Positions 1,661 to 8,454 of a stretch of 64,000 nucleotides of DNA are shown one piece after another. The notes beneath the pieces are model-generated. The model saw only the letters and a program-made list of their open reading frames with translations, did no database searches and had not been told where the DNA came from. This stretch comes from Nitrospirota bacterium (GTDB lineage Bacteria > Nitrospirota > Thermodesulfovibrionia > Thermodesulfovibrionales > Dissulfurispiraceae): NCBI GenBank assembly GCA_021791055.1, contig JAJYXI010000042.1, positions 21,663 through 85,662 of the forward strand. The letters are read 5' to 3'. Both the position numbers and the translations under genes were made by a program. Every line of letters begins with the position of its first letter. The stretch's first letter is position 1.

Positions 1661-3052
1661 TTATTTTATGCCTCCGATATGCTCTTCGCGAAGCTCCTTT
1701 AAAAATATCTCATCCGTAGATTTGGTAATATATTCCTTTTTGGATACTTTTGCTATGCCGGATCCCTTCTTTATTGTCCAGACGAGGAGAAAAATCAACA
1801 GAGCAGTGTAAGCAAGGGCAAAGCCGTATTGCGCGTACTCGTTGTCAGGAAGAAGTTCAAGCATATTTTTTGCCTCCATGAAGCCACGGGAGAAGAAGAT
1901 ATCGTCTATCTGATCCTTAAAAAGCGAATACGGGAGATAGCCTAACATAAAGCCGGGCAGGGCGGTAAGACCTGTCATGTATGCCATGCCGAGCCTTGAA
2001 TATGTCCTGATCTCGCAGCCGAGCATCATAACACTGCCGATTCCCAGCATAGGACCGCCTACGAGATGGCCGAGATGAAAACCGTATTTGTATTTTCCGG
2101 CCTCTACAACTACCGGCACATCCCATCCGAGGACAATCCATGTAAAAAGTATTGTCAGATTAAACATAAGTATTGCAACGAGAAGCCCGGCAAATGGCAT
2201 CAGTCCTGTAAACATGGTTTGGGTTATCTTTGCTACCTTCATAGCCTCAAAATGTTTTGGCTTAAAAAGGAGGGACTTTGGTGACATTACGGCGCATTCG
2301 GTGCCGAAACCGGACTTGGCAATACCGAAGCCAACGAGAAGGCCGACCAATGTTTTAAGCCCGAGTTCAAACAGCGGAATGCTGCCGATACTGTTAGCCG
2401 AATTGCCCTTCAGGGCTGTCCATCCCGCGGAAACAAGGAGCAGGAGGAAAAAGGCCGTGAATATCAGGCGGACAGGGTCTCTATACGGCTTGTAATCAGG
2501 GTCATAACTTAATGTTTCAGTCTGATACTCCAGTTCAACGCATTTCTGCACCGTTGACTTGACCTCGTGGTGTTTCATGAACCCGCCGGCATTTAATCTT
2601 GCCATAAGCAAAAATGCAAGATATGCAAAGGGGATACTGACAATAGCCACCACTATTGATGTAAGGCTCATCGCCGGTATGCCTCCGAGGTAATGCCATG
2701 CAGTGCATCCCTGTGCAAGCCTGGTGCCGAATCCGAAGATCATGGCCCCGAAGAAGGCGAGCATTAAGACGCGGGGAGGGTATTTCACCCAGCTCTTTCT
2801 TTCCCGCTCTATGATCGTCACAATGCAGCCCCCGAATATCATGCCGATCAGCACCCAGTGGATATCTCCGCTGTATGTCCGTGTAATAAAATCGGTCCCG
2901 CTTATATTTTCCTCAAGCGTGCCGAACATCTTTGCAAGGCCTGTTGTTATGGGTATCGGTGTTTCATATTTCAGGAAATACAATACTTCTGCAAGCCCTA
3001 CCAGAAATCCTCCCCACACAAAAGACCATGGTTTCGTAAGAATGTTTCTCAA
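1661..3052 (-). CDS. YeeE/YedE family sulfur (or selenium) transporter
   Basis: 463-residue integral membrane protein with about ten hydrophobic segments. It contains the duplicated Cys-bearing signatures of the YeeE/YedE (TsuA-like) family: GTRLAQGCTAWHYLGG near residue 115, KSGFGTECAVMSP near 265 and LGCEIRTYSRLG near 345. Family members import thiosulfate via conserved cysteines, and some YedE members co-occur with selenium-use genes. Its place in an operon with DsrE-family proteins and an SQR-like flavoprotein supports a role in sulfur-species uptake. Because the DsrE gene here looks like a selenoprotein, selenium transport is an alternative. Substrate assignment is an inference. Confidence 0.85.
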   Translation of the reverse strand: MRNILTKPWSFVWGGFLVGLAEVLYFLKYETPIPITTGLAKMFGTLEENISGTDFITRTYSGDIHWVLIGMIFGGCIVTIIERERKSWVKYPPRVLMLAFFGAMIFGFGTRLAQGCTAWHYLGGIPAMSLTSIVVAIVSIPFAYLAFLLMARLNAGGFMKHHEVKSTVQKCVELEYQTETLSYDPDYKPYRDPVRLIFTAFFLLLLVSAGWTALKGNSANSIGSIPLFELGLKTLVGLLVGFGIAKSGFGTECAVMSPKSLLFKPKHFEAMKVAKITQTMFTGLMPFAGLLVAILMFNLTILFTWIVLGWDVPVVVEAGKYKYGFHLGHLVGGPMLGIGSVMMLGCEIRTYSRLGMAYMTGLTALPGFMLGYLPYSLFKDQIDDIFFSRGFMEAKNMLELLPDNEYAQYGFALAYTALLIFLLVWTIKKGSGIAKVSKKEYITKSTDEIFLKELREEHIGGIK

Positions 3053-5908: not shown

Positions 5909-7099
5909 TTATGGCAAATTGCTTAATCCGTGTTTCATTTTCCAGAGAAAATATCTCTCAAATCCGGCCTTAAGGGACTTAATCCAGGTGCTCTTCATGA
6001 GCACTGATTCCTGCCTCGGCGGAAGCACAGGCCTTGCCTTCATGTATGCGGCAGTATTGCCCATATCCATAAGGCATATCACCGATAACTCCTCAGGCGA
6101 AGGCGGAGCTGCATTCCTGAGTTCGGATACAATCGTTGCCGCTGCTGTCTTTGCCATTGTTACGGTCATATAACCTGTCTTTGGCACGCCTGTTGGCACA
6201 GGGGTTGACTCAGGAGGAGCAATAGCCATTGCAACGCCGATAGTGAAGATATTTTTATATTTTGTATGTCTGTAGTTTTTATCCACCGGTATGAAGCCCC
6301 TCGGATTGCCGAGTGGCGCAACAGCAGGGACACCCTTAAACGGCGGCGCTATCATGGCAAGCTTAAATGGCAGTTTTGTGCCGTCCTTAAGCCTCACCTC
6401 TGATGGCACAACCTCTTCAATGGCCTGATTTGCGAGATATTTTATATCCCTCTTTGCAAACTCATCCTCAACGAATCTCTTTGAATTGCCAAGTCCTCCA
6501 ATGCCGAAATGGCCTACATAGGGCTCTGATGTCAGATAAAATATCGGCACCTTATGTCTTATTTTTCTTTTCCTCAGTTCTGTATCCATCTCAAATGCGA
6601 GTTCGTATGACGGCCCGAAGCAGCTTACTCCCTGTGCAGAGCCGAGGATTATGGAACCGGGTTCTTCGAGGATTTTCTTCCACGAGAGATTGGTCTTCAC
6701 AGCATGATCGAGGGTGAATGTACAGTCCGTGTAACCTTTATCCGGGCCGATACCAGGAATTTCATCAAAAGAAAGATGAGGGCCTGTGGATACTATGAGA
6801 TAGTCGTACGGAATCTCTCTTGCAGCAGTGAATACCTTTGATGCATCCGGCTCTATCCTTATAGCAGCCTCGTTAATAAAATCTATGCCTTTTGGCTTCA
6901 GTATCTCAGAAACCCTCAGTGTTATATCATCAGGCCTTCTATGTCCCATAATAAGCCACGGCAGAGACGGCAGGAAGACGAACCTTTCGTCATCGCTCAC
7001 AACCGTTATCGTTGATTCTTTTCCGAGAAGCCTTCTCAACTCAAAGGCAGCGGTGAGACCGCCGAAGGAGCCCCCGAGTATTGCTATTTTTGTCCTCAT
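5909..7099 (-). CDS. SQR-like FAD-dependent pyridine nucleotide-disulfide oxidoreductase
   Basis: 396-residue flavoprotein beginning with a dinucleotide-binding motif (IAILGGSFGGLTAAFELRR) and a second ATG-like segment (KNIFTIGVAMAI) near residue 285. Overall architecture matches the sulfide:quinone oxidoreductase/type-II NADH dehydrogenase family, which oxidises sulfide or other donors and passes electrons to membrane quinone. A conserved-looking Cys in GSAQGVSCFGPSYELAFE (about residue 160) may be redox active. The C-terminal amphipathic segment (KSLKAGFERYFLWKMKHGL) could attach to the membrane. It sits 15 bases after the TusB-like gene, supporting a sulfur role. The exact electron donor is not shown. 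Confidence 0.8.
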   Translation of the reverse strand: MRTKIAILGGSFGGLTAAFELRRLLGKESTITVVSDDERFVFLPSLPWLIMGHRRPDDITLRVSEILKPKGIDFINEAAIRIEPDASKVFTAAREIPYDYLIVSTGPHLSFDEIPGIGPDKGYTDCTFTLDHAVKTNLSWKKILEEPGSIILGSAQGVSCFGPSYELAFEMDTELRKRKIRHKVPIFYLTSEPYVGHFGIGGLGNSKRFVEDEFAKRDIKYLANQAIEEVVPSEVRLKDGTKLPFKLAMIAPPFKGVPAVAPLGNPRGFIPVDKNYRHTKYKNIFTIGVAMAIAPPESTPVPTGVPKTGYMTVTMAKTAAATIVSELRNAAPPSPEELSVICLMDMGNTAAYMKARPVLPPRQESVLMKSTWIKSLKAGFERYFLWKMKHGLSNLP

Positions 7100-7114: not shown

Positions 7115-7396
7115 TTAGAACATTCCCACTACTTTGCTTTCATTGACCATAAGGTCCACAAGTCCTTCGTAGTTAATCTCTCTAATACCCTTCCCTATCT
7201 CCTCCAAACCCAATCCCCTTAGCCGTGCATCTTCATCAAGGATAAACGCTGTTCCGCAAAAACCTTCAAGCCTCTCCTTCTGTGCAAAATACACTGCATT
7301 CTGTATCAGGCAAATATCAGCAGCCATATCCCTTGCCAATTTTACACCCCTTTTACCCTCATGGGTATCCGGTGAACTTTTGATAATTACAAGCAT
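7115..7396 (-). CDS. DsrE-superfamily protein, TusB/DsrH-like
   Basis: 93 residues, the usual length of TusB/DsrH. It has the alternating beta/alpha pattern of the DsrE fold (MLVIIKSSPDTHEG..., DICLIQNAVYFAQ, LVDLMVNESKVVGMF). The motif DICLIQNAVYFA matches the D-x-x-L-L-Q-x-A-V-Y type seen in TusB. In known systems TusBCD/DsrEFH forms a hexameric persulfide relay in the cytoplasm. It follows the TusC-like gene by 9 bases, completing a D-C-B order. No clear catalytic Cys is present at the C-terminus. Confidence 0.75.
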   Translation of the reverse strand: MLVIIKSSPDTHEGKRGVKLARDMAADICLIQNAVYFAQKERLEGFCGTAFILDEDARLRGLGLEEIGKGIREINYEGLVDLMVNESKVVGMF

Positions 7397-7405
7397 AAAT
7401 CCTCC

Positions 7406-7759
7406 CTAAAAAATCATTGTTGTATCTGATTCATTAATAATCTCAGCGATTTCAGAGCTGTTTGCAATAATTACCCCATCTATGATGTCATCATTCTCGA
7501 GATGCTCATCTTTTATAGAGGTTTTATCAGCATATACATCCGCCCCCATATCAATGCAATCTTTGATCCCCGACTCGATGCTTGAATATTCGGTATTGGA
7601 TGTGTCCTGCCCCTTTTTAGCTGCGTTCACACCGCCATCTACAAGTATCAGTTTTACAGCCATGTCCTCGATTATTCCGCCGAGTGCGTGTCTTATAGCC
7701 TCTGGCGCATCAACAGTGCCGTATGGCGGTCTCCTTAAAATTATGCCTATGCTTCCCAT
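7406..7759 (-). CDS. DsrE-superfamily protein, TusC/DsrF-like
   Basis: 117 residues, TusC/DsrF size. The N-terminus (GSIGIILRRPPYGTVDAPEAIRHALGGII) matches the K/R-x-P-x-G...A-x-x-A opening of TusC. A typical second half follows (GADVYADKTSIKDEHLENDD). It is expected to be the structural middle subunit of a TusDCB-like sulfur relay. Its Shine-Dalgarno (GGGGG, 7765-7769) abuts the stop codon of the preceding DsrE ORF only if that ORF is read through its internal UGA, which supports readthrough of the upstream gene. Confidence 0.8.
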   Translation of the reverse strand: MGSIGIILRRPPYGTVDAPEAIRHALGGIIEDMAVKLILVDGGVNAAKKGQDTSNTEYSSIESGIKDCIDMGADVYADKTSIKDEHLENDDIIDGVIIANSSEIAEIINESDTTMIF

Positions 7760-7768
7760 AATTGCCCC

Positions 7769-8113
7769 CTATAGCCCGAAATTTAAAAAGACGGGTTTTG
7801 ATTTAATCACATTGAAAAGCCCTTTTAATGAGCTCATCTCTCCACCTTCAACAGAGTCCTCTGCCGCAAGACCGCGGGTCTGCATGCATCCTGTTCATAT
7901 GTCAACTTTGAGCCCCCTACCGACAAGATCTTCAAGCGCCGATAGCGACTTTGGAACCTGTCCTTTTACTATCGAAAACACGCCATCACCCGATGCAATA
8001 AGCCTCACCTTCTGACCCCTTTTCAGGGCAGCATCCGCAAGCTTTAAAATAGTGTGGGTGTTCTCAAAACTATAAGGCGTTGTTGAAAGAAACATCACAA
8101 TCTCCTTTTGCAT
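7769..8113 (-). CDS. DsrE/TusD-like protein with in-frame UGA, candidate selenoprotein
   Basis: Read with UGA (7895-7897) as an amino acid, this is 114 residues, the normal size of TusD/DsrE-family proteins. Residues 1-72 give the N-terminal DsrE fold, and the UGA is residue 73. The frame continues as TGCMQTRGLAAEDSVEGG and ends at TAG 7769-7771. Family members have a redox Cys here, as CxxC or C-x9-RG, followed by the conserved RG(L/V). So the UGA replaces the catalytic Cys and forms U-x-x-C. A compact hairpin lies 18-31 nt downstream of the UGA. The start overlaps the ArsR stop (TAATG). The alternative is a nonsense mutation or sequencing error. Sec-machinery genes are not in this window. 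Confidence 0.75.
7864..7881 (-). promoter_or_regulatory. Candidate bacterial SECIS hairpin
   Basis: Downstream of the UGA, CCGC (7877-7874) pairs with GCGG (7867-7864) around a GGUCUU loop. The loop begins with G, as bacterial SECIS loops require, and resembles the GGUCU of E. coli fdhF. A competing fold pairs AGACC with GGUCU around a CGC triloop (7881-7869). Distance to the UGA (about 17-21 nt) fits known bSECIS spacing. This was assessed by eye only. Confidence 0.5.
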
Positions 8114-8454
8114 TAATGCCTCCTTTTGCCTGGATATTTGCCTTTTTTAGTTACAGGACAGCATGCAGGAGCAGGCAGCTCCTCAATGTAGTCCTTCTTT
8201 AAAAGTTTGATTACGTCCGGGATTATGGGGTCTTTGAGGAAATAGCACCTGAGCCTCCCATCCATATAATGGTCAATAACACCATGTGTTCTTAAAATGG
8301 ACAAATGCTGCGATACATTGGGCTGGCTTATCTCGAGAAACTCCTCGAAATCGCTTACGCATTTAACTCCCTTTGTCAGCTCGTCGAGTATCCTTATCCT
8401 TACCGGATGGGCAATGATTTTTAAAAGCTCTATCTTTTTGCCTAATGAACGCAT
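8113..8454 (-). CDS. ArsR-family transcriptional regulator
   Basis: 113-residue winged-helix regulator. The ArsR core is clear: AHPVRIRILDELTKG, then the recognition helix ISQPNVSQHLSILRTHGVI and the wing DGRLRCYFLKD. Cysteines occur at about residue 32 (GVKCVSDF), at about 70 (RLRCYF) and as a C-terminal pair (PAPACCP). Cys-containing ArsR proteins often sense metals, arsenite or persulfides; with a sulfur operon directly downstream, persulfide or sulfide sensing is a reasonable inference. It is the first gene of the minus-strand operon and overlaps the DsrE start (TAATG). Shine-Dalgarno GGAGGTGA lies at 8462-8469. Confidence 0.9.
   Translation of the reverse strand: MRSLGKKIELLKIIAHPVRIRILDELTKGVKCVSDFEEFLEISQPNVSQHLSILRTHGVIDHYMDGRLRCYFLKDPIIPDVIKLLKKDYIEELPAPACCPVTKKGKYPGKRRH

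Follow-up and report, generated by a model that had tools for sequence, protein, structure and literature searches.

Gene arrangement at the dsrE locus

The window, a stretch of 64,000 nucleotides of Nitrospirota DNA, carries on its minus strand a row of genes centred on a member of the DsrE family (Table 1). This gene starts with the ATG at 8113 and contains a single interruption, a UGA at codon 73, behind which 41 sense codons (74–114) follow in frame before a TAG is reached. The UGA at codon 73 and the 41 downstream codons had been described in an earlier note on this DNA, and the coordinates given there are right; the strand, for which it gave none, is minus. Its description of the gene boundaries also holds, in that the TAG (7771..7769) lies 9 bases ahead of the next start (ATG at 7759), and the GGGG immediately behind the TAG is likely the ribosome-binding site of the next gene, judging by its position. 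If the UGA were a stop, 7894..7760 would be non-coding, which is the gap of 135 bases pointed out previously. On the other side, the TAA of the arsR gene overlaps dsrE by one base, its final A being the A of the dsrE ATG.

Table 1. Positions of the dsrE gene, its sequence elements and its neighbours in the window.
Feature	Position	Strand	Evidence
ArsR/SmtB-family regulator, upstream of dsrE	8113..8454	minus	HTH_5 46.3 bits; HTH_metalloreg 72.8 bits (cut-off 55)
DsrE-family gene, predicted selenoprotein, 114 residues with UGA read through	7769..8113	minus	Translation, PF02635, AlphaFold model
UGA in frame at codon 73, the predicted Sec in U-T-G-C	7897..7895	minus	30 of 30 and 75 of 80 loci
Cys76 codon, C of U-x-x-C	7886..7888	minus	Invariant in alignments A1 and A3 (21 and 25 rows)
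Predicted bSECIS stem-loop, 5 bp including one G-U	7864..7877	minus	Local fold; covariation and synonymous conservation in relatives
TAG, end of dsrE if UGA is read through	7769..7771	minus	GGGG directly after
DsrF/TusC-like subunit	7406..7759	minus	PF02635 47.1 bits; TIGR03010 32.8 bits (under cut-off 94.15)
DsrH/TusB-like subunit	7115..7396	minus	PF04077 40 bits; TIGR03011 44.1 bits (under cut-off 49.2)
Pyridine-nucleotide-disulfide oxidoreductase	5909..7099	minus	PF07992 59.6 bits
YeeE/YedE-type sulfur transporter, same gene row	1661..3052	minus	PF04143 66.6 bits

The likely function of the ArsR protein is to regulate the operon in response to persulfide or metal, and the oxidoreductase encoded behind dsrH is, from its sequence, likely a sulfide:quinone reductase (SQR)-like enzyme. 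The best NCBIfam match of the latter is SQR_III_seleno, a model for the selenoprotein subtype among type III SQRs, with 94 bits and thus far under the cut-off of 525; no UGA interrupts the reading frame of the SQR-like gene itself. Past it, an RND-type exporter, the YeeE/YedE-type sulfur transporter and others are encoded in the same direction.

With the UGA read through, the DsrE protein matches the Pfam family DsrE (PF02635) over residues 5–105 with 47.5 bits against a cut-off of 22.7, and an AlphaFold model calculated with Cys in place of Sec shows the DsrE fold with a mean pLDDT of 91. Foldseek TM scores are 0.86/0.84 with 1jx7, 0.84/0.75 with 2hy5_A (DsrE) and 0.84/0.74 with 2d1p_A (TusD). 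An hhalign alignment with E. coli TusD as a single sequence, which is ungapped around the motif but has a probability of only 23%, places the UGA opposite Cys78, in agreement with the earlier assignment of the UGA to the catalytic Cys of TusD/DsrE. The UGA also falls opposite the first Cys of the C-K-T-C motif of YchN. The curated TusD equivalog TIGR03012 gave no match to the protein at an E value of 0.001, and a TusC match was weak (20.6 bits); the protein is therefore filed as DsrE-like and not as TusD. Designed PPR repeat proteins, which appeared at the top of the PDB sequence searches, were taken as spurious.

Conservation of the UGA, the frame behind it and the hairpin

Matches to the DsrE protein of the window were present in 46 of 60 genomes, the source genome included. 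Exactly one in-frame TGA was found in 37 of the 38 best matches (E up to 8.3e-18), and these 37 are spread over 34 of the 60 genomes, again including the source genome; the 38th (G015) lies at a contig end and begins with the last base of the codon at the TGA position. The remaining matches contain no stop, score weakly, with E values of 4e-9 at best, and look like other DsrE paralogs. In all 30 loci fetched from this search the U of a U-x-G-C motif stands at the same place; L036 starts inside the gene. The UGA is codon 73 in the sequences assigned to subfamily A and codon 77 in those of subfamily B. When each GTDB species was represented by one genome, a scan yielded 103 relatives, of which the 80 loci from named genomes were kept; the aligned codon is TGA in 75 and TGC in 5 (three from Bacillota, two from Nitrospirota), so that the search for Cys and Sec variants suggested in the earlier note has returned both, and a single base separates the two forms. 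The conserved codon is accompanied by conserved neighbours: when the window proteins were used in tblastn searches of the 75 TGA loci, DsrF was found at 73, DsrH at 73, ArsR at 63 and SQR at 58 of them.

A phylum-wide draw of 148 genomes, including the source genome, gave TGA in 36 of 40 matches with E values up to 3.5e-38, and the four stop-free matches are full-length, all belong to one family (f17) and have the Cys form C-G-T-C. These four loci (L177–L180, in G087, G100, G078 and G070) constitute a natural Cys counterpart. More distant DsrE sequences from one genus of another family in the phylum (L181, L182 and L183, in G064, G082 and G073) carry TGA as the U of a U-G-T-C motif and are predicted to form a further Sec-DsrE subfamily. 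In the 17 full-length database homologs that were fetched, the UGA position is occupied by Cys throughout, within C-x-x-C in 16 and within C-x-x-S in P0136. A tree of 91 rows, built on few columns and with its root and the direction of change left open, requires 2 changes to account for the distribution of Sec and Cys; Sec is thus not scattered on the tree. A nonsense mutation or sequencing error (TGC to TGA) in a Cys gene whose remainder is now eroding, which the earlier note had kept as a possibility and for which the 5 loci of 80 with TGC at this codon might speak, has a practically negligible probability and was rejected, since a local mutation is ruled out by the conservation of the UGA across 34 of 60 genomes and 75 of 80 named loci, and by a following frame that is under purifying selection and has no further stops.

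The frame behind the UGA was compared in both subfamilies. It contains no stop in 1265 codons of subfamily A (31 of 32 sequences) and none in 1906 codons of subfamily B (47 of 49), against 62–120 stops in the other two frames. The pN/pS ratio after the UGA is 0.189 in A and 0.246 in B, and before the UGA 0.135 and 0.224, respectively, values that indicate purifying selection on the downstream frame at the protein level. Residues invariant after the UGA in a 21-row alignment include G75, C76, R80, E92, S95, L96, G98 and L99. Erosion of this frame in relatives, which the earlier note had named as an observation that would speak against readthrough, was therefore not seen in subfamily A, with its stop-free codons and low pN/pS. 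It could be argued instead that the UGA is a real stop which releases a 72-residue product, the conserved tail and the hairpin having a regulatory role or belonging to a separate small protein. Of 271 database relatives, all 120 that were listed end before the UGA position, with 72–98 residues that cover only the first 61–63% of the query. However, these short lengths probably arise because gene callers stop at TGA, so that the database copies are likely cut at the UGA and lack the catalytic residue; in addition, full-length Cys homologs exist, and the tail keeps C76, R80 and S95-L96-x-G98-L99 invariant under amino-acid-level selection in the same frame. We consider a real stop exceedingly unlikely.

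A bacterial SECIS (bSECIS) element has been modelled as a hairpin with a G within the first two loop positions, 16–37 nt from the UGA (PMC13188914), and this published model was checked by folding and covariation on 81 unique sequences, 32 of subfamily A and 49 of subfamily B. The earlier note had proposed a hairpin with a GGUCU-type loop at bSECIS distance, and its loop and distance stand: the apical loop GUCU lies at 7872..7869, 21–22 nt behind the UGA, the GGUCUU loop beginning 21 bases after it, and a C-C mismatch follows the 5 pairs. The window fold by itself, in contrast, is level with chance, as 65 of 200 shuffles do as well as the local 23-nt fold (z -0.40) and, in free 63-nt MFE folds, many single sequences, that of the window included, pair differently from the proposed stem. 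What rises above chance in these comparisons is the conservation and covariation of the hairpin in relatives, where the loop G and the distance of the bSECIS model are found. The loop reads GGUCUU in 28 of 32 A sequences and CGUGCG in 24 of 49 B sequences, with variants in the other B sequences, and lies 21–22 nt behind the UGA. The mean number of standard pairs (of 6) is 5.34 in A, compared with 3.01 in synonymous-codon permutations, and 5.57 in B, compared with 4.22, with none of 500 permutations as high in either case; the local MFE z over 200 permutations is -12.1 for A and -20.1 for B.

Within subfamily A, 89.7% of cells pair (83.7% when shuffled) and 15 cells have changes on both sides (5.8 when shuffled), values that none of 500 shuffles reached, and sliding the stem model out of register lowers pairing to 27–52%. 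Two other measures in A, the count of pairs in which both sides changed (2 versus 1.5 shuffled; 234 of 500) and that of further pair types (7 versus 6.5 shuffled; 220 of 500), are not above shuffles, because most inner pairs hardly vary; covariation is plainly visible in L031 and L035. Where the hairpin lies, synonymous divergence almost disappears: at codons +6 to +10 it drops to 0.04, 0.13, 0.06, 0.18 and 0.00 in A; in B it is 0.12 at +7, 0.10 at +8 and 0.00 at +10, and codon +9 varies freely (0.60).

Selenocysteine machinery and decoding of the UGA

The source genome encodes SelA (633 bits), SelB (381 bits) and SelD (329 bits), all above the curated cut-offs. Its selD gene (L018, about position 1531) contains one in-frame TGA at the catalytic Cys position (G-U-A-A-K), and SelD is thus predicted to be a second selenoprotein of this genome; a GGUCC-GUC-GGACC hairpin lies behind this TGA and is, taken alone, not significant (z -1.30). 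SelA occurs in 56 of the 60 genomes (source genome included), among them 33 of the 34 with a UGA-containing dsrE, the exception being G030, which is 80% complete; at such a frequency, co-occurrence with SelA does not discriminate.

A canonical tRNA-Sec was not found in the 87-contig assembly of the source genome with the Rfam model, with a sequence pattern or with the tRNA-Sec of a relative and its flanks. The sole match over the cut-off of RF01852 in this genome (L009) was rejected as tRNA-Sec; ARAGORN assigns it as tRNA-Ser(UGA). The same program detected canonical tRNA-Sec(UCA) in 9 of 12 relatives searched, including two of three from the same genus, and the gene was not found in the other three, namely G003 and G006 (subfamily A UGA gene) and G050 (subfamily B). 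In G001 and G002, selC lies about 0.6–1.5 kb from tRNA-Ser(UGA); in a synteny search, the corresponding contig of the source genome matches the tRNA-Ser side to about L081:9833 and then diverges, with no tRNA-Sec. As selC of G001 adjoins a gene of lysine/alanine-rich repeats, we infer that tRNA-Sec is present in the organism and missing through an assembly gap. The search for the Sec machinery advised in the earlier note therefore succeeded for selA, selB and selD, but not for selC in the assembly itself.

A tRNA-Sec-like gene of 123 nt with a long variable-arm insertion and the anticodon GCA was found at L010:1501-1623 (C71:61270-61392 of the source genome), just upstream of a thiosulfate/YeeE-type transporter gene and unreported by ARAGORN. 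It is also present in G001 and G002 (L079 and L080), and its features make it a candidate tRNA-Cys of the selC* type. According to a review, selC* tRNA-Cys occur in Nitrospirae, and versions with a UCA anticodon in Desulfobacterales (PMC7609411). Together with the missing canonical tRNA-Sec, these genes raise the question of whether an opal-reading, tRNA-Sec-like tRNA-Cys inserts Cys at the UGA, so that the product has Cys. However, the anticodon is GCA in all three genes, which therefore decode UGC/UGU and not UGA, canonical tRNA-Sec(UCA) is present in most of the relatives searched, SelA and SelD score above their cut-offs, and the hairpin stands at a SelB-type distance. Reading of the UGA as Cys is accordingly very unlikely.

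Proposed function and comparison with known systems

Taken together, the gene of the window very probably encodes a selenoprotein, the DsrE-like subunit of a sulfur relay of the DsrEFH/TusBCD type, in which the hairpin located 21 bases behind UGA73 would assist its reading as Sec. We propose the following hypothetical mechanism, in which (i) SelB carrying Sec-tRNA would bind the hairpin and decode the UGA; (ii) the selenolate of U73 would take up sulfane sulfur as a selenopersulfide, the donor being TusA or polysulfide made by the SQR-like enzyme; (iii) U73 would pass the sulfur on, probably towards a DsrC/TusE-type protein; and (iv) Cys76 of the U-x-x-C motif may resolve or release the sulfur at U73. 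A role in sulfane-sulfur relay with Sec as the acceptor appears likely by analogy with Cys67 of DsrE in the type II DsrEFH of cable bacteria, which aligns with Cys78 of A. vinosum and takes sulfur from TusA in a complex that passes it on to DsrC (PMC13293266).

Alternatively, the protein could be a selenoprotein that does not take part in a sulfur relay, such as a redox enzyme with a U73-C76 selenenylsulfide that reduces persulfides or selenium compounds. U-x-x-C and C-x-x-C are redox motifs, TusD has a single Cys at this site (I-C-V-A-A-A) and YchN has C-K-T-C, a Cys-type DsrEFH with TusA exists separately, and the additional Cys76 leaves room for a redox role. In contrast, the conserved neighbours DsrF and DsrH fit a DsrEFH complex, and type II DsrEFH of cable bacteria transfers sulfur through the Cys that aligns with A. 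vinosum Cys78 (PMC13293266). We regard a purely redox function as unlikely and favour the sulfur relay.

The source genome encodes DsrC and DsrA, and also contains a second DsrEFH set with a Cys-type DsrE (C-E-A-C) and TusA (L175:2594-3963, on C38), about 6–7 kb from dsrC, with DsrA further along the same contig. Because this Cys-type set lies near dsrC, the Sec set need not feed DsrC; it is likely a separate branch and perhaps takes sulfane sulfur from the SQR-like enzyme. At its widest, our hypothesis is that of a selenium-based DsrEFH throughout the Nitrospirota, in which Sec would be the sulfane-sulfur carrier (as a selenopersulfide). This relay would be controlled by an ArsR sensor and cooperate with an SQR-like enzyme, a separate Cys-type DsrEFH would serve the Dsr pathway, and surveys would have missed the Sec genes since gene callers cut them at the UGA; we give this wider scenario about an even chance.

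Genome-based predictions of sulfur oxidation and disproportionation make use of DsrEFH. If the catalytic residue is Sec across the lineage, the called proteins stop one residue short of the catalytic position, and functional DsrEFH may have been miscounted in Nitrospirota. Selenium supply would then be linked to energy metabolism based on sulfur, and the Sec and Cys forms, as a natural pair of one sulfur carrier, would allow a test of what selenium adds.

Searches of open-licence PMC papers found none in which 'selenoprotein' and 'DsrEFH' occur together, and none with 'selenocysteine' and 'DsrEFH' among the matches listed; selenocysteine, sulfurtransferase and TusD all occur in PMC5372745. Type II DsrEFH is a divergent trio described from cable bacteria, sulfate reducers and Nitrospirota, its subtype 1 being mostly from Nitrospirota (PMC13293266). 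In contrast to the predicted Sec of the window, the survey of this type reports Cys in 99.3% of sequences, and words in 'seleno' are absent from the passages searched in four papers, this survey among them, on type II DsrEFH, disproportionation, cable bacteria and the YTD cluster (PMC13293266, PMC12998232, PMC13047784 and PMC8780430). The Sec versions may have escaped the survey through truncation by gene callers at the UGA.

The protein resembles DsrEFH of A. vinosum (2HY5) and TusBCD of E. coli (2D1P) in its fold and in an active-site position aligned with Cys78, at 16–19% identity in the Foldseek alignments, and the trio has the order D-C-B of E. coli tusDCB. It differs from them in having a predicted Sec in place of Cys and, three residues further along, a second thiol at a position that is Ala in TusD. 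E. coli YchN (1JX7) is the best genuine PDB sequence match and the top Foldseek match and has C-x-x-C at the same place, but represents the Cys form. DsrE-like selenoproteins (Pfam02635, U-x-x-C) have appeared in published lists since at least 2005 (PMC1088965, PMC1794560, PMC9312934, PMC13188914), in line with the earlier note. The listed proteins, from Desulfovibrio vulgaris and the Sargasso Sea, share with the window the UGA at the first position of U-x-x-C and a predicted bSECIS (PMC1088965, PMC1794560, PMC13188914). The passages on this family give few members (two Sargasso sequences and one genome) and mention no operon, whereas the gene described here encodes a DsrE-like subunit of a conserved arsR-dsrEFH-sqr operon of Nitrospirota with two or three subfamilies. 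Thus, DsrE-like U-x-x-C selenoproteins were already known, and what is new is their operon context, how widely they occur in Nitrospirota, the evidence from covariation and their systematic truncation in the databases.
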